From positions 496,001-560,000 of the forward strand of contig NZ_SOEO01000001.1 of the NCBI RefSeq assembly GCF_004365655.1: a stretch of DNA of 64,000 nucleotides, in the 5' to 3' direction. Positions within the stretch are counted from its first letter, which is position 1; every line of letters begins with the position of its first letter. Below are positions 15,354-26,630 of the stretch, in pieces. The translations under genes and the position numbers were made by a program. This stretch comes from Epilithonimonas xixisoli. Its GTDB lineage: Bacteria; Bacteroidota; Bacteroidia; Flavobacteriales; Weeksellaceae. The notes under the pieces are model-generated. The model was not told the DNA's origin. It saw nothing but the letters and a program-made list of their open reading frames with translations, and did not search any database.

Positions 15354-16535
15354 TTACTCCCCAAAAAACGCCATAGAACTCCCGATCCAAATCGCATCTT
15401 TCTTATTGAAATCTACATTCACCATCGCTGCTTTCGTCATTCTCACAAGATTGACAAGAAGTTCTGGGTCTTCTTTCTTTGGATCCCAACCAAATAGCAA
15501 ACGGATTTCTGCTTTGGAAAATTCACCATTGATGTCTTCAAAAAGTGGAGCGTATGTGACTTTTCTTTGAAGGATGTAATTTTCCTTGTCATTAATTTGA
15601 TTAATGATTTCTTGAGTCGGATCCAGATTGACGCCACTTCCTGCAAACGAGAAAAGTGGTTTCAATACAAAATTTTCAAGCGTTTCAGTCTCAGGAAAAT
15701 CAGATAAGAAATAACTTTTCGGGACAAACGCGTGTTTCAACTTTGGAAGAATATATTTTGAAACTTTGAAAAACCAATTCGGATGCGTGACCCATTCAAC
15801 ATCCACATTTTCACGGAAATCAAATTCTGTTTTCAAGCCTTCGATCTTATCCAACTCATCAAAGATCACTCGATTGTAAATTCGGTTGATTGGAATTAAT
15901 TTTCCATCTTTCTCATAAAATAATTTTTTGCCTTCTTTTTTAACTTTTGTCAGACAAACCGTTTTGATTCCCAACAATTGCTCTGTCAATATAAAATCAA
16001 CCGCTGTTTTTTGCTTCTCAGGATAGATTTCCAGCAAGATGACATTCTCAGGATTCTCGTCTCCTACAATTACAGCTTTCAATTTTTCAACAAATTCTTC
16101 CTGTGAAAGTGACTTTTTCAAATCATTCAAAAAAGGATAAACTTCCGTGATCACTTCCTCAAATAATCTTTGAAAACCGAACAAACTTGGGAAAGCCTGC
16201 AACTCTATCAACTGCGGAATGATCTCGCCATTTTCATCCTGACAAATTCCGAAATCAATCGCCAAAAAATGAGGTTGCTTGGTGTCATTCGGAACGTTGC
16301 AATTGGCAGGAATCGCTTTGCTCAGTTCTTCATCAGACATATTTTTGATTTGCGAAATGATTGACTTCGAAGCGTCGTCCAGCTTGTTCCAAAAATCATT
16401 AGTAAGGAAAATCGGACTTTCAGAAAGGCGAAACGCGGCTTCGTGACCGCATTTCTCTATGATTAGCTCGTGTGTTTTCTTGTAAGTTTCTGCAGAAAAT
16501 TCTATGTTAAATTGGGTTCTGTATTTTGGAATCAT
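15354..16535 (-). CDS. ATP-grasp-like ligase (third of the cluster)
   Basis: A 393-residue soluble protein. The C-terminal half looks like an ATP-grasp fold: FVLKPLFSFAGSGVNL resembles the lysine and glycine-rich ATP loop, and YILQRKV fits the adenine-contact strand. The N-terminal half holds HFLAIDFGICQDENG and RIYNRVIFDEL. This arrangement recalls circularly permuted, glutathionylspermidine-synthase-like enzymes, which join a carboxylate to an amine using ATP. The assignment is weaker than for the two other ATP-grasp genes. It lies 25 bases downstream of the amidotransferase gene, the tightest spacing in the cluster, so the two are surely cotranscribed. Confidence 0.6.
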   Translation of the reverse strand: MIPKYRTQFNIEFSAETYKKTHELIIEKCGHEAAFRLSESPIFLTNDFWNKLDDASKSIISQIKNMSDEELSKAIPANCNVPNDTKQPHFLAIDFGICQDENGEIIPQLIELQAFPSLFGFQRLFEEVITEVYPFLNDLKKSLSQEEFVEKLKAVIVGDENPENVILLEIYPEKQKTAVDFILTEQLLGIKTVCLTKVKKEGKKLFYEKDGKLIPINRIYNRVIFDELDKIEGLKTEFDFRENVDVEWVTHPNWFFKVSKYILPKLKHAFVPKSYFLSDFPETETLENFVLKPLFSFAGSGVNLDPTQEIINQINDKENYILQRKVTYAPLFEDINGEFSKAEIRLLFGWDPKKEDPELLVNLVRMTKAAMVNVDFNKKDAIWIGSSMAFFGE

Positions 16536-16560
16536 AGTTTGTGTTTGGTGTTTTTTTTAA

Positions 16561-17403
16561 TTAACTATAAGCTAAATTTTTCGCAATTTTTTCTGAAGCA
16601 AATTTCAGAAACCTTGGAATGATTTGCGCTTGTGTCAGTACAATCTTGTCTTCATCATTCATTCTGTCGATGGTTTCTAGATATTTTTCCATTCCGAAAG
16701 TTTCGATCATTGCAGTCTTATTTTTTTCATCCTCCAGATTTTTCACAAATCCTGTTGGATCAGCTTCTGGATGGAATTGTGTTCCAAAGATTTCATCGGA
16801 AAAACGAACCGCCATCAGCGCTCTTTCCAAATGAACTGTTGGGCGGATTTTTTCAAGAGCGACAACTTTCATTCCCAATTCATCGATTTTTTCCTGATTT
16901 GGTTCAATGCATTGATAACCTCTGGAATCTACTGCGTAGAAAGGATCTGGCAAGTTTTTGAACAAAAATTCTTTCTCGCCGTCTTCCGATTTGTGAATGG
17001 GCATCACGCCAAAAGAATAGGATTTTCTCTTGCAAACATTTGCAATTCCAAAATGAATCACCGCCAATTGGAAAGAATGACAAACCAAAAAAGCGTATTT
17101 TTTCTGTTCATTATTTTGATTATGTTCCCAAATTTGATTTAAGAAATCAGCATATTTATTTTCCCATTCGTAGCCTTCTCTGTGAGGATTTCCAGGTCCT
17201 CCGGAAGATAAAAATATATCAAAGTCATTAATGTTTGGTATTTCGTTTTTGTAACGAACGTCGAAGATTTCTACCGAAACATTATCGTCGGACTGCTCCT
17301 GAAAAGTTTGAGATAATTCTTTAATATTGCGCATCCCTTGATTCGGATGGTTATTATTCATATCCAAAAGCGCAATTCTTACATCATTCTTACTCATATT
17401 CAT
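16561..17403 (-). CDS. Class I glutamine amidotransferase
   Basis: 280 residues with a class I glutaminase domain: SSGGPGNPH (oxyanion part), nucleophile Cys108 in LVCHSFQLAV, and His211/Glu213 in GTQFHPEAD. The nucleophile elbow is V-C-H-S-F-Q rather than the usual G-x-C-x-G-x-Q, but the triad is complete. It should release ammonia from glutamine for a partner ligase or act as a related gamma-glutamyl hydrolase. Its neighbours are the GCS2-type ligase (73 bases upstream) and the ATP-grasp-like gene (25 bases downstream). A TAATTTTG minus-7 box lies 11 bases before the start. Confidence 0.83.
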   Translation of the reverse strand: MNMSKNDVRIALLDMNNNHPNQGMRNIKELSQTFQEQSDDNVSVEIFDVRYKNEIPNINDFDIFLSSGGPGNPHREGYEWENKYADFLNQIWEHNQNNEQKKYAFLVCHSFQLAVIHFGIANVCKRKSYSFGVMPIHKSEDGEKEFLFKNLPDPFYAVDSRGYQCIEPNQEKIDELGMKVVALEKIRPTVHLERALMAVRFSDEIFGTQFHPEADPTGFVKNLEDEKNKTAMIETFGMEKYLETIDRMNDEDKIVLTQAQIIPRFLKFASEKIAKNLAYS

Positions 17404-17476
17404 AAATTTTCTACAAAATTAAGAATTTTAAATTTGAGGTCATTTTATATGAAAAATCGGATTCATCAGTTATCAA

Positions 17477-18580
17477 TTAAAACAATCCTTTTTCCGTCTC
17501 ATAAATCATATAATCCACGACTTTTTTCAGGTCGCCACCACTTTCGTGGAAGACTTTCAATTGACGGTCTGCGCCAGTTCCCATTTTGCAGATTTCTCTC
17601 GCATATTCCACTTCCTTTCTACAGCCCAAATCATCAACAACATCATCGATGAAAGCCAATAATTCTTCCAAAAGGTCACGATAAGGAACGCTTGCTTCTT
17701 TCCCAAAATCAATCAGATGAGCATCGATTCCGTCTTTGGAAGCGCGCCATTTGTTTTCGGTCAATAGCAATCTTCTGTAACTTCTGTAGCTCGTATTTTG
17801 CTGGTGCATTTTGTATATTTTTGCCACCAGCGATTGCATAATTGCCGCAAGACAAACCGTTTCGTCAATCGTCATTGGCATATCGCAAATCCTGAATTCG
17901 ATAGTCGGGTAGAAGGGATGAACTCGCAAATCCCACCAGATTTTCTTGGCATTGTCGATCGTTCCGGTTTTTACCATTAGATTCACATACGCATCAAACT
18001 CCGCAACACTACCGAAATAACTTGGCAAACCTGTTCTTGGGAACTTAGCGAAAACTTCCTGTCTGTAAGATTTGAAGCCCGTCAATCTCCCAACCCAAAA
18101 CGGCGAATTGGTGGACAAAGCGTAAACGTGTGGCAAGAAATAGCGCATCACATTTTGAATTCTAATTCCCTCTTCACGATCTGGAATCCCGATGTGAACG
18201 TGCAATCCGAAGATTAGATTTGATCTTGCAACATCGCCCAAATCGCTGACAATTTTGTCGTATCTCGCATCTTTTGTGATAAGGTTGTCTTTCCAATGCG
18301 AAAATGGATGTGTTCCACCACCAGAAACTCGCAATCCCTGGTCGTGAGCCGTTTTTACAAGATGTCTTCTGAGGTCTGTTAATTCTTGTCGTGCTTGTTG
18401 GATATTTTCACAGATGCCAGTTTCCATTTCCACCACAGATTCGTGCATTTCGTGTTTTAAGTTTTCGCTGAGAACGGCTTTTCCACCTTCGATTATTTTT
18501 GAAACGTGCGAGACCAGATCCCGAGTTTCTGCGTCTATGATTTGATATTCTTCTTCTACACCTATTGTAAATCTGTGCAT
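17477..18580 (-). CDS. GCS2-type carboxylate-amine ligase (YbdK family)
   Basis: 367 residues, close to the length of E. coli YbdK (372). It opens with FTIGVEEEYQIID, the family signature with metal-binding glutamates, and continues with GGTHPFSHW, FGLHVHIGIPDREEGIRIQN and EFRICDMP. The family forms gamma-glutamyl-type amide bonds using ATP and glutamine-synthetase-like chemistry; YbdK itself has weak glutamate-cysteine ligase activity. The substrate here is unknown. It sits between the amidotransferase and the second ATP-grasp gene, with a repeat element (18639-18822) just upstream. Confidence 0.9.
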   Translation of the reverse strand: MHRFTIGVEEEYQIIDAETRDLVSHVSKIIEGGKAVLSENLKHEMHESVVEMETGICENIQQARQELTDLRRHLVKTAHDQGLRVSGGGTHPFSHWKDNLITKDARYDKIVSDLGDVARSNLIFGLHVHIGIPDREEGIRIQNVMRYFLPHVYALSTNSPFWVGRLTGFKSYRQEVFAKFPRTGLPSYFGSVAEFDAYVNLMVKTGTIDNAKKIWWDLRVHPFYPTIEFRICDMPMTIDETVCLAAIMQSLVAKIYKMHQQNTSYRSYRRLLLTENKWRASKDGIDAHLIDFGKEASVPYRDLLEELLAFIDDVVDDLGCRKEVEYAREICKMGTGADRQLKVFHESGGDLKKVVDYMIYETEKGLF

Positions 18581-18638
18581 ATTATTTGTGTTTGTTAGTT
18601 AAAGTTAGTTAGTAGTTGCTTTATTAATGATACAATTT

Positions 18639-18822
18639 GGGCAGCTTAATCCACTTTCCGCTCCCAAACCTAACGAAGTGGTTCGACGAAGTCAATCTTT
18701 TTTGCTCAAGATTTCAGTTTAAGTAGAACTCGAGTACAAGCAAAAAAGGATTCGCTTAAACCTAACGCAGTGGTTCATCGATTCAAATAAAAAAATAGAA
18801 AAGATTAGATAAGTCGGGCTGC
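18639..18822 (+). repeat. Intergenic hairpin element R2, enlarged by two inserted direct repeats
   Basis: It begins GGGCAGCTTAATCC and ends AAGTCGGGCTGC, with an inner hairpin AATCTTTTTTGC / GCAAAAAAGGATT. Compared with R3 it contains two extra blocks of about 23 bases, AACCTAACGAAGTGGTTC (from about 18667) and AACCTAACGCAGTGGTTC (from about 18759), placed symmetrically on either side of the hairpin. It separates the GCS2-type ligase from the upstream ATP-grasp gene. Confidence 0.85.
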
Positions 18823-18861
18823 AAAGATTCTGCGTTCCAAATTGTGTCATCAAATAAAATT

Positions 18862-19812
18862 TTAAAGTTTATTTGTTACAAATTTCCCCCAGTTGATATT
18901 CACTTTTCCTGGTTTGTAATCTTTTGCTTTTTCGATGGCCAATTTTGCAGAGTGCTCTACAATCCAAGCAAAGTTTTCTTCTCCAACAGAATTCTTGTCC
19001 GCATCTGGCGCAGGATTACAGAAGTCAATCGCGTAAGGAATGCCGTCTCTCACCGCAAATTCTACGGTGTTGAAATCATAGCCCAATGCTTCATTCATTT
19101 TTAAAGTATAATCCGTGATGGTTTTAAGCAACTTTTCTCTTGCTGCACCTTCGGTTTGATGTGTTGTTGCATATCTCAAATGATGTGGATTTCTAGGTTC
19201 GTACGGCATTATGTGAACGTACTTTCTGCCCAAACAATACACGCGATAGTAATCCTCGAAAATGATTTCTTCCTGCACCATCATTACCAACTGCTCTGTC
19301 TCAGCGTGTTTTGCCCACATATCTTCTGGACTTTCAACTCTGTAAACATTTCTCCAGCCTCCACCATCGTGCGGTTTCATATAAGCTGGAAATCCAACAT
19401 AATCAAAAATATAATCCCAATCGTGAGGGAATTTTAAGTTTCTGAATGATGTTTCTGATGTGTTTTCTGGTCTTTCATAAGACGGGAGCAAAACTGTTTT
19501 CGGCAAAGGAATTCCGATTTTTGACATCAATGCGTTGTTGAAAAATTTCTCATCTGCGCTCCACCAAAATGGATTGTTGATGACGTAAGTTCCGCTCATT
19601 GCTGCATTTTTAAGATAAGCTCTGTAGAATGGAACGTCTTGCGAAATTCTGTCGATAATCACGGCGTAACCGTAATCTGCGCCTTGTTCCAATTTGTCAA
19701 TTTGGACAGCTTCTGCGATGTATTCGCCTTTCCCGAGTTCGTTCACTTTATCAATAAATGCCCACGGAAAAGTGTCTTCCATTCCGAATAAAATTCCAAT
19801 TTTTTTTGCCAT
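18862..19812 (-). CDS. ATP-grasp ligase
   Basis: 316 residues, soluble. ATP-grasp features: the ATP-binding lysine in AYMKPHDGGGWRNVY, the adenine strand VMMVQEEIIFEDYYRVYCLG, and the metal-binding part EFAVRDGIPYAIDFCNPAPD with Asp and Asn. The N-terminal GILFGMEDTFPWAF is a typical Rossmann-like start of a RimK/D-Ala-D-Ala-type enzyme. Members activate a carboxylate as acyl phosphate and join it to an amine. Substrates are unknown. It lies between an esterase gene (101 bases upstream) and the GCS2-type ligase. Confidence 0.85.
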   Translation of the reverse strand: MAKKIGILFGMEDTFPWAFIDKVNELGKGEYIAEAVQIDKLEQGADYGYAVIIDRISQDVPFYRAYLKNAAMSGTYVINNPFWWSADEKFFNNALMSKIGIPLPKTVLLPSYERPENTSETSFRNLKFPHDWDYIFDYVGFPAYMKPHDGGGWRNVYRVESPEDMWAKHAETEQLVMMVQEEIIFEDYYRVYCLGRKYVHIMPYEPRNPHHLRYATTHQTEGAAREKLLKTITDYTLKMNEALGYDFNTVEFAVRDGIPYAIDFCNPAPDADKNSVGEENFAWIVEHSAKLAIEKAKDYKPGKVNINWGKFVTNKL

Positions 19813-19913
19813 AATTTATGATTTGTTAATTTGTTAATTTGTTGAATCGTTTATTGTATATTTCAAAGTTTAGCGATTTTACAATTTTACGATTAATGAG
19901 TATTCAATAATTT

Positions 19914-20627
19914 TTATCCAAAAAACCGCCCAATGAATTTCGGGAAAACCATTCTCCAAAGTACCCAATCGTGGTCTATCCATTTTGCTTCATCATACCA
20001 GTGATTGATTCCTTTTGATGTTAAAATGCCTGCCATTTTTCTCGTTGGTTCAAGGCAAATGTCACGGTCAGAAGTACTGAGGACGATGTGCATATGCTTG
20101 TACTTCCAGGCTTCATCATTCTTGATAAATTCATCTGGACAATTGAAATAAATTAATTGGTCATCATAACCATCCATAAAACTTCTAATTGTAAAAGCGC
20201 CAGACAGACAGAAAAGATGTGAAACCAAATCCGGAAACCTAAAAGCAAAATTAGCTGCGTGATAACCACCGAAACTTGCGCCTGCTACGACAACTCGATG
20301 CGTATTGTGCGTTCTCTGGATGTATGGAATAAACTCCTGAACCAAGAACTGAACGTACATTTCGTAGTTTCGAATTCTTTCGTAAGGCGAAATTCCCTTG
20401 TCGTAGAAACTGAATTTGTCGATAGTTTGAATATTAAACAATTTCAATTTTCCACTGTCTGTAAAATGCGAAATGCTTCCGTTGAGATGGAAATCTGCAT
20501 TCTGAGTATAAGAACCTTGTGACGTCGGAAACATAATAACTGGAATTCCAAAATGTCCGGTAACTTCCACCTGAAGGCTCATCCCGAGAATATGTGAGTA
20601 GTAATCTGTATGTGTAATTTGAGGCAT
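19914..20627 (-). CDS. Esterase-family alpha/beta hydrolase
   Basis: 237 residues, no signal peptide. The nucleophile elbow is GASFGGYHAANFA, the acid is probably in STSDRD, and the catalytic His in KWIDHDWVLW, all as in the putative-esterase (esterase D) group. It starts IPVIMFPTSQGSYTQNADF, a pattern often seen in cytoplasmic members. It is embedded between the two ATP-grasp genes, so it may cleave or transfer an ester or thioester of the cluster product. Its start is preceded by a TTATCATT/TCATTCATCA leader (20628-20690) very like that of pdxJ. Confidence 0.82.
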   Translation of the reverse strand: MPQITHTDYYSHILGMSLQVEVTGHFGIPVIMFPTSQGSYTQNADFHLNGSISHFTDSGKLKLFNIQTIDKFSFYDKGISPYERIRNYEMYVQFLVQEFIPYIQRTHNTHRVVVAGASFGGYHAANFAFRFPDLVSHLFCLSGAFTIRSFMDGYDDQLIYFNCPDEFIKNDEAWKYKHMHIVLSTSDRDICLEPTRKMAGILTSKGINHWYDEAKWIDHDWVLWRMVFPKFIGRFFG

Positions 20628-20690
20628 ACCTTTTTATAATTGATGAATGATAGTTAATGAATGATAAATGATAAACGATGAATGATTAAA
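20628..20690 (-). repeat. TTATCATT / TCATTCATCA leader before the esterase gene
   Basis: Read on the minus strand this region is a chain of TTTATCATT and TCATTCATCA units followed by AATTATAAAAAGGT and the ATG. The end matches the pdxJ leader (ATTATAAAAAATATG) closely. Confidence 0.6.
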
Positions 20691-20711
20691 CCTTGAACCT
20701 TGAATCCTGAA

Positions 20712-21923
20712 TCAGTTCGTTGGTTTGTCTTTCGGTGGCAAAATATTTAGAATTTGCTCAGTCACAATTAAAGCAGCTTCGTCCAATCTTTCCTCTATAA
20801 TGTCAGCTGTTTTGGCTTTGTAAACAATTCCAATATGATAATCGATAGGTAAGAATTTTTCCACGTGTTCATTGTTCAAATCATCGGTGTTTGAATGCTT
20901 TTCTTTTGCAAGTGAAACAATTAATCCTGAATATAATTTCTGAGTTTCTTCAACCGTATATTTTTCGCCGTCCAATAATGCATTTTCCAGTTTTGCCCAT
21001 TCTCTCCAAATGTTGACGCCGGTTGCAGCTTCTACCATATCCGGAATGTGCGCACCACCAACTCTGGAAGATGTTTCCAGAAAATAGAATTTCCCATCAT
21101 TTCCTCTGATAAATTCACTGTGCGTTGCCCCATTTTGAATTCCAAATTTGTCCAAAACTTCTTTGTTGATTTTTTCCAGACCAATTGCTTCCTCAGATTT
21201 TTTATCCAAAGTTTTGGTTCGGAAAACACCACCTTCGTGAGAAACCTTCATCGGTGGAGAAAGGTATTTTGAAAAGCAGGAAAACACGATTTCTTTATTG
21301 TAAACCAAACAATCCACGTGGTAAACATCACCAGGTTTGAACGCCTCCAGCAAAAATTTGAAACGCTCGTCGCCCAGATTTTCTACCGCTGGCCAAAGTT
21401 CTTCGGCAGAATTTATTTTTATAATTCCGCTTGCCGAAGCTTCAGAACGTGGTTTCAAAACCCAGGGTCCAGGAACATCTTGCGTGAATTTATGAAGTTT
21501 TGCATCATTGAAAATCGATGAAAATTCGGGTACGGAAATCCCATTGTCTTTTGCTTGTTGGCGCATTGCCAGCTTATCTCGGAAATAACGATGCGTCGTT
21601 TGTCCCATTCCCGGAATACGATAAGTTTCGCGAATCATCGCCGCTTTTTCCACATCGAAATCGTCCAACGCAATCACTGCATCTATCTGATGATTTTTCA
21701 TCAAATAAGCAAAACCTTGAACCAAGTGGTCGAGATTCCAAACCGATGCTTCGATTTCGGGCATATAATAAACCTCGTCTATCGCGTGCCAAGGCCAGTT
21801 TTTTTCTTTCAAATTTTCTGACGTGATGAGAATGACTTTGTTTCCAAGCTTTTTGCACTCGTCCATAAAGTCGTAGCCTTTGTAATAACAGGAGATGCAG
21901 ACAATCGTTTTTTCCATATTCAT
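20712..21923 (-). CDS. ATP-grasp ligase (carbamoyl-phosphate-synthase-like)
   Basis: 403 residues, soluble. An N-terminal Rossmann-like part (ICISCYYKGYDFMDECKKLG) is followed by an ATP-grasp domain: GPWVLKPRSEASASGIIKI with the ATP lysine, FLLEAFKPGDVYHVDCLV, and the metal site FLETSSRVGGAHIPD. The usual E-x-N-x-R is E-T-S-S-R here, so the asparagine is replaced by serine. The layout is close to the CARNS/dipeptide-ligase type that joins amino acids. It is the first ligase of the cluster, 107 bases downstream of the M17 aminopeptidase. Confidence 0.86.
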   Translation of the reverse strand: MNMEKTIVCISCYYKGYDFMDECKKLGNKVILITSENLKEKNWPWHAIDEVYYMPEIEASVWNLDHLVQGFAYLMKNHQIDAVIALDDFDVEKAAMIRETYRIPGMGQTTHRYFRDKLAMRQQAKDNGISVPEFSSIFNDAKLHKFTQDVPGPWVLKPRSEASASGIIKINSAEELWPAVENLGDERFKFLLEAFKPGDVYHVDCLVYNKEIVFSCFSKYLSPPMKVSHEGGVFRTKTLDKKSEEAIGLEKINKEVLDKFGIQNGATHSEFIRGNDGKFYFLETSSRVGGAHIPDMVEAATGVNIWREWAKLENALLDGEKYTVEETQKLYSGLIVSLAKEKHSNTDDLNNEHVEKFLPIDYHIGIVYKAKTADIIEERLDEAALIVTEQILNILPPKDKPTN

Positions 21924-22030
21924 TTATTTTTGTCGGAAGTCAGAAGTCGGATGTCCGAAGTATGATTTCTTATTTGTAATTAGTTTTTAATTTTATTTAA
22001 AGCAAAATGTCGTAAGTTAATCGCTATTTG

Positions 22031-23437
22031 CTAATTATAATTCTCAATAAAATCCAACAGCAATTGCACGCCGTAACCTGTTGCCGCTTTATCTTTCGCA
22101 TAACCAACATTCCCAAAAGCAACTCCTGCAATGTCAAGATGTGCCCAATTTTGATGACCTTCTATAAATTGTTCCAAAAATTTTGCAGCTACAATACAAT
22201 CGCCAAAAGGCTTCATTGAAATGTTCTTAAAATCCGCAACATCCGATGTGAAATCGTCCTTCCAAACATCCCAAAGTGGCAAATTCCAAAGTCGCTGATT
22301 GGTTTTATCTGCGGACTTTTCCAATGATTTTTTCAAATCGTCATTGTTGGAAAAGTAAGCGCCACAAGTGTAACCGAACATTCGGACTGAACTTCCCGTC
22401 AAGGTTGCTAAATCAATCAAAACATCGGTTTCGTAATTCTTTGACAAATACGAAAGTCCGTCTGCAAGCGTCATTCTGCCTTCTGCATCGGTGTCCAAAA
22501 CTTCAATCGTTTTTCCACTGTAGGCGGTAATCACGTCACTTGGCAAATACGCTTTTTCTGAAACCGCATTGTCCGTGATTGGCAGAATTGCAATGATATT
22601 CACCGGAAGTTTAAGCTCTGAAGCTGTAATCAAAGCGCCAATCACCGCACTGGCGCCACCCATATCGCTTTTCATATAATGCAGATTGGCAGAGCCTTTG
22701 ATGGAAATTCCGCCCGTGTCGAATAAGACGCATTTTCCTACTAAGCCGATGGTTTTTGCATTTTCTTTTTCAGATTTATACTCCAAAATCGTGAACGAGG
22801 CTTCCTGAGAACTTCCTTGATTGACTGCTACAAATGCACCCAAACCTTCTTTGATGGATTCTTCTCTGTTTAATGACTTGTATTTCAAGCCATATTTTTC
22901 TGAGGTTGATTTCAGAAATTCTGAGATTTGGTCAACTTTTTTATAGTTCGCAGGTTTGTTAAGCCATTCCATTCCGGCAAATTGTCCGTTGCAAAGTGCT
23001 TCTGTTTTTAAAGCTAAATTTTTTGCTTCATCATCAGAAATGTTTTCAAAATAAAGTTCAAAATTCTCCTGCCAAAAGGGATGCGATCTTTCAAAAGGGT
23101 AGAGGTAAGTTCCCAAGAACAGACCTTTTACAAACTCCTCAGTCAAATCCAATCCTAATTTTGAATGAACCGAAGTTGCAACAGCTTGCAGATTTTTCTT
23201 GTAATCGTTCGCAAATTTGTTCGCCACATTTTGAATTTCAAAACCTTTTGAATCTCTACCAATTCCAATGAAAAAATTGATTTCGTTGGAGTCGGTTTTG
23301 ATGAAAACTTCGCTTTTTTTTCCGTTGAAAAAGTGCTCTGTATTCGGGTAATTCGATTTTTCCTGCTCCCAATCGTCTTCGCTGAACAGGAATATATTTT
23401 GTGTGGTTGTTTCTTTTTTATTGTAGATTTTAATCAT
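22031..23437 (-). CDS. M17 leucyl aminopeptidase family protein
   Basis: 468 residues. The C-terminal catalytic domain holds the family signatures: VGKCVLFDTGGISIKG, MKSDMGGASAVIGA, and DTDAEGRMTLADGLSYL, which give the two-metal site and catalytic lysine and arginine. The N-terminal regulatory domain is present, so the length is normal. It removes N-terminal residues from peptides in the cytoplasm. It stands directly upstream of the first ATP-grasp gene, so it could process or recycle peptides made by the cluster, but a general housekeeping role is equally possible. Confidence 0.92.
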   Translation of the reverse strand: MIKIYNKKETTTQNIFLFSEDDWEQEKSNYPNTEHFFNGKKSEVFIKTDSNEINFFIGIGRDSKGFEIQNVANKFANDYKKNLQAVATSVHSKLGLDLTEEFVKGLFLGTYLYPFERSHPFWQENFELYFENISDDEAKNLALKTEALCNGQFAGMEWLNKPANYKKVDQISEFLKSTSEKYGLKYKSLNREESIKEGLGAFVAVNQGSSQEASFTILEYKSEKENAKTIGLVGKCVLFDTGGISIKGSANLHYMKSDMGGASAVIGALITASELKLPVNIIAILPITDNAVSEKAYLPSDVITAYSGKTIEVLDTDAEGRMTLADGLSYLSKNYETDVLIDLATLTGSSVRMFGYTCGAYFSNNDDLKKSLEKSADKTNQRLWNLPLWDVWKDDFTSDVADFKNISMKPFGDCIVAAKFLEQFIEGHQNWAHLDIAGVAFGNVGYAKDKAATGYGVQLLLDFIENYN

Positions 23438-23454
23438 AATTACTTTACTGTTAT

Positions 23455-23506
23455 CATAGGAATAAATTCCTATGTTGAAATATTGGTCGTCCCGATGGGA
23501 CTTTTT
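23455..23506. repeat. Palindrome plus small hairpin between peptidase and esterase genes
   Basis: CATAGGAAT and ATTCCTATG form a perfect 9-base palindrome with a 2-base centre (23455-23474). Sixteen bases on, GTCCC-GAT-GGGAC followed by TTTTT (23489-23506) forms a second hairpin. The T-run is on the plus strand, so as a terminator it would face away from the cluster. Confidence 0.6.
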
Positions 23507-23511
23507 GGGTT

Positions 23512-24636
23512 TTAGTTTTTGATCTCATTTTCCAATTCATTTTTTGCTTTCACTGGACTTTCCAAACTGTCGATGAATAGCCATTCTACAGCTCTTGGAA
23601 ATTCCTGGGACCAATAGAATTCCTGATGTGTTCCTTGCTCGTTGATATTGGTTTTTACTTCAAAATCAAACAATTTCTGAGCATTCAGCCGTTTCAAAGA
23701 TTTTTCGAAAAGCCTGATTCTGCCAACCATTCTGGAGCCTTCTTGTCTTCCGCCGTACAAATAAACCTTGATTTTATAAGGATTACTGAAGCTTATCATC
23801 GGAAAATCATTCTCAGGTTCTACCCAAAGCGACGGCGAAAAAATCAACAGTTTGGAATAGACTTCAGGATAAAGAAATCCACCATAAATACTAATCAAAC
23901 CACCCAAAGAACTTCCGCCAATTCCTGTATTTTCGCGGTCTTTTTTTGTTCTGTAATTTTTATCAATCCAAGGTTTCAACGTGTCTGTGATGAACCTCAA
24001 ATATTTTTTCCCTTCCGCATCTTTTGTGACGGCATCATTATCAAAAATATATTCCTTGATTCTGTCGTCGTTGCCGTGTTCTACAGCGATAACAATCAAT
24101 TCACCACGTCCGTATTCCGCCAAAAGCGCTAACTTTTTATCAATTTCCCAATTCCCGTAAGCCGAACCTTCATTAAACAAATTCTGCGCATCCTGAAGGT
24201 AAAGCACAGGATAACTTTTCTCAGATTTGTGATAATCAAAAGGCAAAAGCGCCCAAACTTTTCTGGTTTTATCGAGCTGAGGAATATAGAACGCCTCATC
24301 TACCAATTCCACCGTTGGGAAAAATTCCTTTTTGAACGGTCCCCAATTCAGTCGCCATTTTTCTATATTGACCTGGACTTTTTTCGCCTCTTTTCTAATT
24401 TTTCGGTTAGGCGTTATGTTGTCGTATCTATCGATTTCTACATTTTCCCAACCACCTTTTGTAAATTTAAATTCTATCTCATCACTCAGTTGTTCATCGG
24501 GAATCTGGATGTAATAATTGCTATCATTCAATTTTTCCAATTCAAATTTGGAATCGCGTGGATTCCACTTGTTAAAATTTCCGGTAATGAAAATCGCTCG
24601 GTCATCATTGTCTTCTGACTTCAGAAAAAACTCCAT
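23512..24636 (-). CDS. Esterase with N-terminal CBM48-like domain
   Basis: 374 residues without signal peptide. Residues 1-90 look like an AMPK/CBM48-type carbohydrate-binding sandwich (IFITGNFNKWNPRD, IEFKFTKGGWENVEID). From about 115 on it is an esterase D-type alpha/beta hydrolase: LPFDYHKSEKSYPVLYLQDAQNLFN, nucleophile elbow GIGGSSLGGLIS, FSPSLWV, and a C-terminal His in EQGTHQEFYW. Similar two-domain proteins include enterochelin-esterase-like and feruloyl-esterase-like enzymes. It is the first gene of the minus-strand amidoligase/peptidase run. Confidence 0.83.
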   Translation of the reverse strand: MEFFLKSEDNDDRAIFITGNFNKWNPRDSKFELEKLNDSNYYIQIPDEQLSDEIEFKFTKGGWENVEIDRYDNITPNRKIRKEAKKVQVNIEKWRLNWGPFKKEFFPTVELVDEAFYIPQLDKTRKVWALLPFDYHKSEKSYPVLYLQDAQNLFNEGSAYGNWEIDKKLALLAEYGRGELIVIAVEHGNDDRIKEYIFDNDAVTKDAEGKKYLRFITDTLKPWIDKNYRTKKDRENTGIGGSSLGGLISIYGGFLYPEVYSKLLIFSPSLWVEPENDFPMISFSNPYKIKVYLYGGRQEGSRMVGRIRLFEKSLKRLNAQKLFDFEVKTNINEQGTHQEFYWSQEFPRAVEWLFIDSLESPVKAKNELENEIKN

Positions 24637-24802: not shown

Positions 24803-24842
24803 AAAAAATAAAAAAGCTTTCGAAGAATCACTCCGAAAGCTT
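24803..24842 (-). terminator. Terminator downstream of the GH43 gene
   Basis: On the minus strand a 9-base stem AAGCTTTCG / CGAAAGCTT with an 11-base loop is followed by a T-rich run (24813-24803). It separates the GH43 unit from the esterase gene. The remaining 24637-24800 is AT-rich and shows nothing else. Confidence 0.8.
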
Positions 24843-24869: not shown

Positions 24870-26630
24870 TTATTCCGATTTTATAACCTCGGTTCTTTCC
24901 GAGATTCCATTGGCGTTGAAAGCCTCGATTTGGAAATAATAAGAATCAACTCTGTCGGCTCCGGTGAAAAAATATTCGTTTTTACCATAAACCATAATGC
25001 TTCCGTACAATTTGTCCGGCGATTTTCCCCAATAGATGACGTAACCATCAGCATCAGAATTCTGTTGCCATTTGAACCAGATGCTTCTTCTTTCGCCATA
25101 TTTTTTAGGGTCAGCGCGCAGTGGAACAAATCCTTGAACTTTTCCTGGTTTCGTTCCTGCACCTTTTCCAAACACTCGAAATCCGCTCAATGCAAATTTT
25201 CCTGTTGGCATTTTCAGGTTTTCCATTTTTAGAAATCTTGCTTTTGCCGGTTTTTCAAGTTCGATATAATCGTGCGGAACATCGGTTTGGTTTTTAGATT
25301 TGTCAACAATTACTGTCCATTTTTTGCCATCATTAGAACCATAGATTTTATATTGATGCATTTTGCCGAGCGTTTTTCCCATAAACTCCGCATCTTGGTC
25401 AGCGTAATTAACTTGGATTGCATTGATGGTGGAAACTTCACCCAAATCCGTCTGAAACCATTCGCCGGAATTTCCGGTTTTCGCACTCCAATATGTTTTA
25501 ATATCTTCATCCACTGCAAGATTTGCCTGATAACCGCCCAAAGTTGATGAAACCTGAACGGGTTTGTTATAATTCAAAAGCATCCAACCTGGGAACAATC
25601 CTTTGGAAAAATCTTTCCCTTGCGCATATTGCGGTAGCAAAGTCGGATAATCGCCATAAGCGGTGTTGGTGTACATCACATCGTCTTTGTCGAAGCCAGT
25701 TGGCCAGATTCCCAATCGGCGTTCAAAATTGTTTTTTGTTGAAATGAAAATCGTGGAAACGTGCCACCAATTATTGAAATTATCCTGAAATGTTGCACCG
25801 TGACCAGCGCCTCTAGCAAATCCGCCCGGCTTGTAAGAAAACGGATTGTGTTGCTGGTATTCATAACCTTCCAATGGATTTTTGGAAACATAAACACCAT
25901 CAGAATAACCACTGAATTCCGTGGCTGGCGCGCCATATTGCATATAATATTTGTCTTTGTATTTGGTGACCCAAGCGCCTTCTACGAATGGTTGCAGGAA
26001 AACATTATCGTTGTATTCACCAAATCTTTCCCAGCCGTGGTCTTCTGGTTTCAATCTTAAAATTGGTTTTACGAAACCTTCGGACTGCATCGTTTTTGTC
26101 TTGATTTCAGTTCCTAAAAGTGGCCATTCGTTGCTGGAACCCCAATAGAGATATAGTTTGTCTTTGTCTTCATCATAATGAAAAGCCGGGTCCCAAGCGC
26201 CAACTTTCAACGTGTCAACTGCGATTTTCCAATCGTCTTTGGTTGGATTGGTGCTTTTCCAAATCGGGAAATCCTGTTCCCAAGTCGAGCCATAAACGTA
26301 CAATGTATCTTTCATTGCCCAAACTGCAGGCGCGTTCAAATCGTGCGTGTATTTGTTGTCTCTAAGGAATTTTCTGTGGATGAATTTCCAATTCAACATA
26401 TCATCAGAATGCCAATAGCCTTCTTGATTCGTGGAAAATAAGAAAAGCTTTTTCTGAAAATTGACAATCACTGGGTCGGCTGTTGCACGGTGTTTTCCTT
26501 GCTTGGAAAAAACTTCGAAAGGCGTGTATCCATAATCGATGTTGATGGGATTGCAATAGGTTTTTTGTTGCGCCGAAATCTGACCGATGAAAAGTAAGAA
26601 TGCGGACGCAAATATTGTTTTTAAATTCAT
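24870..26630 (-). CDS. Secreted family 43 glycoside hydrolase with F5/8-type C domain
   Basis: 586 residues. Residues 1-20 are a signal peptide. A five-bladed GH43 propeller follows (about 22-340): HRATADPVIVNFQKKLFLFST carries the catalytic base Asp, KVGAWDPAFHYDEDKDKLYLYWG the second Asp, and FVEGAWVTKYKDKYYMQYGA the acid Glu. A discoidin/F5-8C domain (about 355-485; LGGYQANLAVDEDIKTYWSA) and a fibronectin-like C-terminal part complete it. No sorting domain is seen, so it is probably periplasmic or surface. The family cleaves arabino- or xylo-oligosaccharides. No SusC/SusD genes accompany it. Confidence 0.87.
   Translation of the reverse strand: MNLKTIFASAFLLFIGQISAQQKTYCNPINIDYGYTPFEVFSKQGKHRATADPVIVNFQKKLFLFSTNQEGYWHSDDMLNWKFIHRKFLRDNKYTHDLNAPAVWAMKDTLYVYGSTWEQDFPIWKSTNPTKDDWKIAVDTLKVGAWDPAFHYDEDKDKLYLYWGSSNEWPLLGTEIKTKTMQSEGFVKPILRLKPEDHGWERFGEYNDNVFLQPFVEGAWVTKYKDKYYMQYGAPATEFSGYSDGVYVSKNPLEGYEYQQHNPFSYKPGGFARGAGHGATFQDNFNNWWHVSTIFISTKNNFERRLGIWPTGFDKDDVMYTNTAYGDYPTLLPQYAQGKDFSKGLFPGWMLLNYNKPVQVSSTLGGYQANLAVDEDIKTYWSAKTGNSGEWFQTDLGEVSTINAIQVNYADQDAEFMGKTLGKMHQYKIYGSNDGKKWTVIVDKSKNQTDVPHDYIELEKPAKARFLKMENLKMPTGKFALSGFRVFGKGAGTKPGKVQGFVPLRADPKKYGERRSIWFKWQQNSDADGYVIYWGKSPDKLYGSIMVYGKNEYFFTGADRVDSYYFQIEAFNANGISERTEVIKSE

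Follow-up and report, generated by a model that had tools for sequence, protein, structure and literature searches.

A conserved ligase and hydrolase gene cluster of Epilithonimonas xixisoli that may make and dismantle a small non-ribosomal peptide

What do eight adjacent genes for amide-forming ligases, peptidases and esterases do together? The question is raised by positions 15354..24636 of a 64-kb stretch (the window) of the 3.39-Mb genome of Epilithonimonas xixisoli, where eight minus-strand open reading frames, here called A to H, encode proteins of 374, 468, 403, 237, 316, 367, 280 and 393 amino acids. Our tentative answer, to which we give close to an even chance, is that the cluster both makes and dismantles a small non-ribosomal peptide: C, E and F would assemble it, H would cap it with an amine, and G together with peptidases would cleave it. 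A first-pass annotation, made from the letters of the window, had described eight consecutive genes on this strand, and all of the reading frames lie exactly where it placed them. L and G numbers below are our handles for loci and genomes. The genes are as follows.

23512..24636, minus strand: A, esterase (PF00756)
22031..23437, minus strand: B, M17 leucine-type aminopeptidase (PF00883)
20712..21923, minus strand: C, ATP-grasp ligase, homologue of L-amino acid (dipeptide) ligases (PF13535)
19914..20627, minus strand: D, esterase-like alpha/beta hydrolase (PF00756)
18862..19812, minus strand: E, ATP-grasp ligase of the RimK/LysX fold (predicted structure)
17477..18580, minus strand: F, YbdK-type GCS2 carboxylate-amine ligase (PF04107, NF010039)
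16561..17403, minus strand: G, enzyme of the class I glutamine-amidotransferase fold (PF00117, putative triad)
15354..16535, minus strand: H, circularly permuted ATP-grasp protein of the glutathionylspermidine synthetase / YgiC fold (predicted structure)

The order of the cluster exceeds chance. Among 60 loci anchored on H relatives (the window's own locus, L001, is left out, and some loci end at contig ends), the fetched stretch includes E in 36 cases, F in 35, G in 31 and D in 26. A second set, anchored on E, comprises the best 80 of 583 loci, with 80 distinct E sequences and an enrichment in close relatives; F is present in 76 of these and D, G and H in 72 each, the order D-E-F-G-H is kept in 37 and the full order A-B-C-D-E-F-G-H in 17. 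All 80 bear Bacteroidota names. The closest E relatives in this set come from a Chryseobacterium metagenome-assembled genome (98%), Flavobacteriaceae bacterium PS02293 (96%) and two Epilithonimonas species (93-94%), and relatives of H include one from Epilithonimonas sp. UC225_85 (92%). Four of the 80 E sequences also occur in loci fetched from the genome survey, and counts pooled over all loci hold a few duplicates. Between G and H the median gap is 8 bp (71 pairs). A search of 72,556 plasmid records brought up no E, and there is no sign of plasmid carriage.

On whether the genes stay together in relatives, a question that the first-pass annotation had posed, D to H mostly do, and A-B-C does so only in part. 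Of the 36 C-anchored loci fetched, 33 have a called C gene, and 9 of these 33 show the A-B-C order; in other lineages the three genes are placed elsewhere or are partly missing. C-B-A stands convergent beside H in one genome (G226, locus L029) and in three E-anchored loci. A-B-C and D-H look like two modules of one system, and the distribution of C, E and H in 296 Bacteroidota genomes bears on how they are coupled: 108 carry E, 92 carry H and 66 carry C; E accompanies H in 89 of the 92 H genomes, H and C occur together in 53, and E is missing from none of the 66 that have C (P about 3e-16 by chance at genus level, uncorrected for ancestry). C therefore depends on E even when the two are unlinked. 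A ribosome-independent peptide or amide pathway, as proposed in the first-pass annotation, is still the best reading, to which the phyletic profile adds that C is never without E; no convincing precursor peptide gene was found in the intergenic gaps of the cluster, again as that annotation had it.

All eight proteins were scanned against Pfam (E<0.01) and against NCBIfam with its curated cut-offs. The scans back A, B, C, D, F and G, so that the earlier labels of esterase, M17 peptidase, ATP-grasp ligase (C), second esterase, GCS2 ligase and class I amidotransferase hold; for E and H Pfam is silent, and predicted structures agree with their description as an ATP-grasp ligase and an ATP-grasp-like protein, respectively. 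C matches PF13535 at 36 bits and, in a search of the PDB, characterised L-amino acid ligases (4wd3, E=2e-15; 3vot, E=5e-12; also 30vh); it misses the DdaF family cut-off, with 34 of 840 bits. Judged by sequence, C is a clear homologue of the L-amino acid ligases. F matches PF04107 at 225 bits, NF010039 at 532 (cut-off 371) and TIGR02050 at 306 (cut-off 176), finds 1tt4 and 1r8g in the PDB, and is the only GCS2 match in the genome. For the gamma-glutamyl product suggested in the first-pass annotation, this kinship of F with YbdK is the sole ground, and the suggestion is not supported in that form.

E reaches no Pfam family, and the RimK model TIGR00768 scores it below threshold, at 34 of 143 bits. 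Searches with the single sequence of E or of H gave nothing useful, and a profile search with E gave weak ATP-grasp matches only. The predicted structure of E is of the RimK ATP-grasp type; RimK itself is the best fold match, ahead of LysX, synapsin and D-Ala ligases by only some 1 to 4 Z units. Many E proteins carry long C-terminal tails rich in Lys, Ala and Pro (164 amino acids in L123; also in L114, L116, L090, L086, L029 and others), which recall DNA- or polyanion-binding ones; the E of the window has no such tail.

For H, the predicted structure is a circularly permuted ATP-grasp protein of the glutathionylspermidine synthetase (Gss) type, and the match spans the whole protein. The best fold matches are YgiC, YjfC and Gss, followed by eukaryotic glutathione synthetases; by sequence profile, YgiC is the sole PDB match at E<1 (0.033). 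The family model PF03738 weakly matches 7 of 31 H members at E up to 0.1. A local profile comparison of H with YgiC gave Prob 81 and P 1.2e-5, with the nucleotide loop aligned (KPLFSFAGSGV, at position 292 in H). The candidate metal-site residues D94, E111 and Q113 are invariant in the 31 members; matched by eye from motifs, they may correspond to the metal ligands D318, E330 and N332 of Gss (letters checked), with Gln for Asn. By its fold, H would work like a member of the glutathionylspermidine synthetase / YgiC family, but its PF03738 score denies it formal membership. YgiC is annotated as a peptide--spermidine ligase in the K-12 record, and PMC12568646 terms YgiC and YjfC peptidylpolyamine synthetases. 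In three genomes that have E and are without H (L161, L177, L178), a related reading frame sits between E and G; the one copy tested is itself a circularly permuted ATP-grasp protein (PF14403, 37 bits, cut-off 32), and the H slot seems to keep its chemistry. Two more such genomes (L179, L180) have no called E gene.

G matches the class I glutamine amidotransferase family (PF00117, 47 bits), a search of the PDB with its sequence found no match, and its putative triad C108-H211-E213 and a GGP motif are invariant in 104 of 104 non-redundant sequences (here and below, active-site counts were taken after removal of near-duplicates, and the roles of the residues in A, B, D and G are those usual in their families). 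In five loci (L014, L017, L026, L046, L048) an M29-type metallopeptidase, assigned with Pfam on the L014 copy, lies between F and H in the place of G. We sought both genes in 80 of the 92 H genomes, leaving out 12 from already sampled genera. G was found in 43 and a close M29 relative (at least 59% identity to the L014 copy) in 6, none of which has G (one-sided P=0.008; five families, ancestry uncorrected); in the sixth, G208, the M29 gene is placed elsewhere, outside the F-H slot. The exclusion is limited to this close group because more distant M29 relatives coexist with G. We infer that M29 and G perform the same job, and by analogy we lean towards G being a hydrolase akin to the amidase partner in Gss. 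A further hydrolase gene is seen near H: in L053, L057, L059, L060 and L061 the gene directly adjoining or overlapping H encodes an amidohydrolase (PF07969, L053 copy), and the genomes with this arrangement (G086, G027, G101, G059, G043) are all without G and have E elsewhere; in L043 the amidohydrolase stands between F and G, in an E-F-G-H row.

The first-pass annotation had one enzyme supply ammonia, which is doubtful because the M29 peptidase replaces G in those five loci. Worked out in full, this alternative has G feed ammonia to H, whose product would be a peptide ending in a primary carboxamide, like N-acetylglutaminylglutamine amide (NAGGN), and has B recycle the peptide. The intact class I triad and the tight coupling of G to H speak for it; yet G is found nowhere in G271, G255, G093, G055 and G001, where E, F and H are adjacent (in G251, which has F and H, the contig ends there), most G-less genomes with such a row have a peptidase in its place, and the fold of H is that of ligases taking a preformed amine. 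We consider ammonia supply by G unlikely, and prefer the reading in which G cleaves.

Peptidases and esterases make up the rest of the cluster. B matches PF00883 at 338 bits and keeps its putative metal ligands K235, D240, D258, D317 and E319, with roles and positions that we take over from the M17 family, in 42 of 42 non-redundant sequences; it misses the cut-offs of the NCBIfam leucyl aminopeptidase equivalogs (best 359 of 552 bits). M17 genes stand beside C in some lineages, and an M14-type gene does so in four other loci (one copy tested). Three unrelated peptidase families, M17, M14 and M29, thus recur at the cluster, and nothing hints more strongly at peptides as substrate and product than this repeated pairing of the ligases with peptidases and amidases from unrelated families. 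A is an esterase (PF00756, 87 bits) with the serine-hydrolase motif GGSSLGG and with S243 and H337 invariant in 31 of 31 non-redundant sequences. The CBM48-like domain also claimed for it fared less well: an N-terminal motif, FITGNFNKW, was spotted by eye (G19, N20, F21 and W24 are invariant in the same 31) and a related esterase has a sub-threshold AMPK1_CBM match, but Pfam reports no CBM48 on A at E<0.01. D matches PF00756 at 36 bits; of its 97 non-redundant sequences, 95 have the nucleophile candidate S118 and 96 have H219.

The pathway may run as follows. C, of the L-amino acid ligase type, F, of the YbdK type, and E, with its RimK fold, would form peptide or isopeptide bonds from free amino acids. 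H would then join an amine to the peptide end, an amidation like that of glutathionylspermidine synthetase and of YgiC/YjfC, to which it is similar by fold. G, with its Cys-His-Glu residues, would most likely hydrolyse an amide of the product, comparable to the amidase half of E. coli Gss, and B (an M14 or M29 peptidase elsewhere) with the esterases A and D may trim the product or release building blocks. The basis of this scheme is the gene content, order and conservation, phyletic linkage, folds, active-site residues and the M29 peptidase in G's slot; from these we infer the directions of the steps, the order of the bonds, the identities of the amino acids and the amine, and the roles of the esterases.

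Several known systems resemble parts of this scheme. With E. coli Gss and YgiC/YjfC the cluster shares the full-length fold and perhaps the metal-site pattern of H and, for Gss, the pairing of a ligase with a Cys-dependent amidase-like protein, here G; it differs in that H, at about 12-15% identity, falls short of the family cut-off, that three further ligases and peptidases are linked, and that the Gss amidase has another fold than the class I amidotransferase fold of G. Glutathione synthesis likewise uses a GCS2 enzyme followed by an ATP-grasp ligase, and F is a GCS2 member and E and H are ATP-grasp ligases; however, F groups with YbdK and falls far short of the cut-off for cyanobacterial GshA (TIGR02048, 70 of 249 bits), and the best fold match of E is RimK. 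C is a clear homologue, by sequence, of the bacilysin and dapdiamide L-amino acid ligases, which otherwise work in settings such as antibiotic clusters, whereas here C is tied to E. The NAGGN osmolyte system, like this cluster, has ligase, amidotransferase and aminopeptidase genes in one neighbourhood, but there the amidotransferase is of the asparagine-synthase type, the ATP-grasp domain is fused to a GNAT domain and the peptidase is an M42 enzyme; no Pfam or NCBIfam model of such components is listed for the eight proteins (for C, among the best 25 of 27 NCBIfam matches).

A number of points weigh against the scheme of assembly, capping and cleavage. H misses the PF03738 cut-off, with 15.4 of 29.3 bits, and its identity to YgiC is 15% over the aligned part, so its amine could be anything; global alignments of H with YgiC and with Gss, and a local one with Gss, gave nothing significant. 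G is missing from 37 of the 80 H genomes surveyed, of which the close M29 accounts for 6 and 31 have neither. Of the 80 genomes, 16 have a distant M29 relative (27-31% identity), and 14 of these 16 carry G and lack the close M29; the close group was delimited after a gap in E-values had been seen (1e-127 versus 1e-29). H and E lie far apart in many Bacteroidota, and all linkage and co-occurrence counts ignore shared ancestry. No substrate or product has been observed. Because of the distant M29 relatives and the genomes with neither G nor M29, our confidence in the whole model is slightly lowered.

A second alternative starts from E, which, like RimK, could add amino acids to a protein or polymer, with the other ligases extending or removing the tag. 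The RimK fold is what suggests it, but E scores well below the RimK cut-off, LysX, synapsin and D-Ala ligases are nearly as good fold matches, and no linked target protein gene was seen. Tagging by E is in our view distinctly improbable.

The neighbours of the cluster suggest a third, namely a product linked to carbon or nitrogen storage, such as a modified glycogen or a cyanophycin-derived peptide. Glg genes stand beside A, C or E in several loci: GlgC, GlgA and GlgB flank A in the Chryseobacterium group, and in 16 loci no more than 603 bp separate GlgB from A; GlgC is 10 bp from C in L051 and GlgA 20 bp from C in L160; and in L177 GlgC and GlgA are 1.0 and 2.3 kb from E. A hand count over the 37 C genomes among the matches listed puts GlgA within 10 kb of C in 3 of them, two from one family; with 1.8 copies and 4 Mb assumed, about 0.3 would be expected. 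At the H end, cyanophycin synthetase (CphA; 876 amino acids in L003) is found in 14 Chryseobacterium or Halpernia loci (L003-L006 and ten others), an S51 cyanophycinase-type peptidase in 12 of them, and type 2 asparaginase also occurs near H in Chryseobacterium-group loci, giving the appearance of a storage island with the CphA genes on one side of the cluster and the glycogen genes on the other. Yet GlgA does not track the cluster: present in 264 of the 296 genomes, it has an uninformative profile and was rejected as a co-occurring gene, leaving the mild enrichment in proximity. CphA was rejected as a pathway gene, being near H only in the Chryseobacterium group, and the single CphA match in the window's genome is about 53 kb from H. 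A storage product is very unlikely to be the explanation, and the neighbourhood hints do not fix the product. Elsewhere, a class III aminotransferase (Pfam on the L008 copy) follows H directly in 12 Dyadobacter-type loci (L095, L096, L099, L100, L101, L103, L104, L106, L109, L111, L113, L117), and in ten of these a gene that by eye resembles an ammonium transporter lies some 4-5 kb upstream of D or E.

Least probable of all is that unrelated housekeeping enzymes happen to adjoin, as the first-pass annotation had considered: YbdK relatives exist as orphans, and a general role for B is possible because it is the only M17 peptidase found in the genome, but the order is kept across several families and even unlinked genes co-occur near-strictly, which contradicts this explanation for C, E and H and less so for A, B and D.

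The overall interpretation of the first-pass annotation is thus partly supported. Neighbourhoods of ATP-grasp and GCS2 ligases are already known as a kind; a survey by Iyer et al. in 2009 (Mol Biosyst 5:1636) reportedly linked ATP-grasp and other amide ligases to peptidases. In the titles, abstract openings and passages of open-licence papers that our searches covered, we found no description of this gene order or of an H-type enzyme in Bacteroidota; the passages of PMC4431377 do not describe the order either. A wider proposition, which we hold to be doubtful, is that Bacteroidota have an old and widespread pathway for an undescribed peptidyl-amine, a functional counterpart of glutathionylspermidine; YbdK, RimK-fold and YgiC-like ligases would build this compound, an amidase or peptidase of its own would turn it over, and its level would follow the stores of carbon and nitrogen. 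If the scheme of assembly, capping and cleavage is right, about one-third of the sampled Bacteroidota, going by the counts for H and E, would make a small metabolite that we have not found named. In other organisms, peptides of the glutathione type and those conjugated to polyamines control the redox state, the handling of metals and the supply of polyamines. Proteins so far hypothetical (H), a YbdK ligase of the orphan type (F) and several peptidases would also gain one joint function.

Two further features lie within or next to the cluster.

18624..18853, strand not assigned: interspersed repeat between E and F, outside the pathway
24814..24842, minus strand: terminator-like hairpin between A and its upstream gene

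The repeat, of about 230 bp, has imperfect terminal inverted repeats of 28 nucleotides with arms 75% complementary, and it matches 36 stretches of the genome, itself included, most of them to one 60-bp part; it looks like a small mobile or REP-type element tolerated by the operon. H is the likely 3' edge of the unit because the YetF-like gene downstream of it is beside the cluster solely in the window's own genome (among 61 H-anchored loci). The upstream edge is likely A, with the hairpin preceding it; nine terminator-like sites were found where shuffled sequences gave 8.0, and by itself this hairpin is weak. The gene upstream of A (24870-26630) carries an F5/8 type C domain (PF00754, Pfam); inspection by eye adds a signal peptide and an N-terminal part resembling a glycoside hydrolase. 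No relative of it was seen in the 60 H-anchored loci, and in Epilithonimonas arachidiradicis (L064) a gene of similar size occupies its place.

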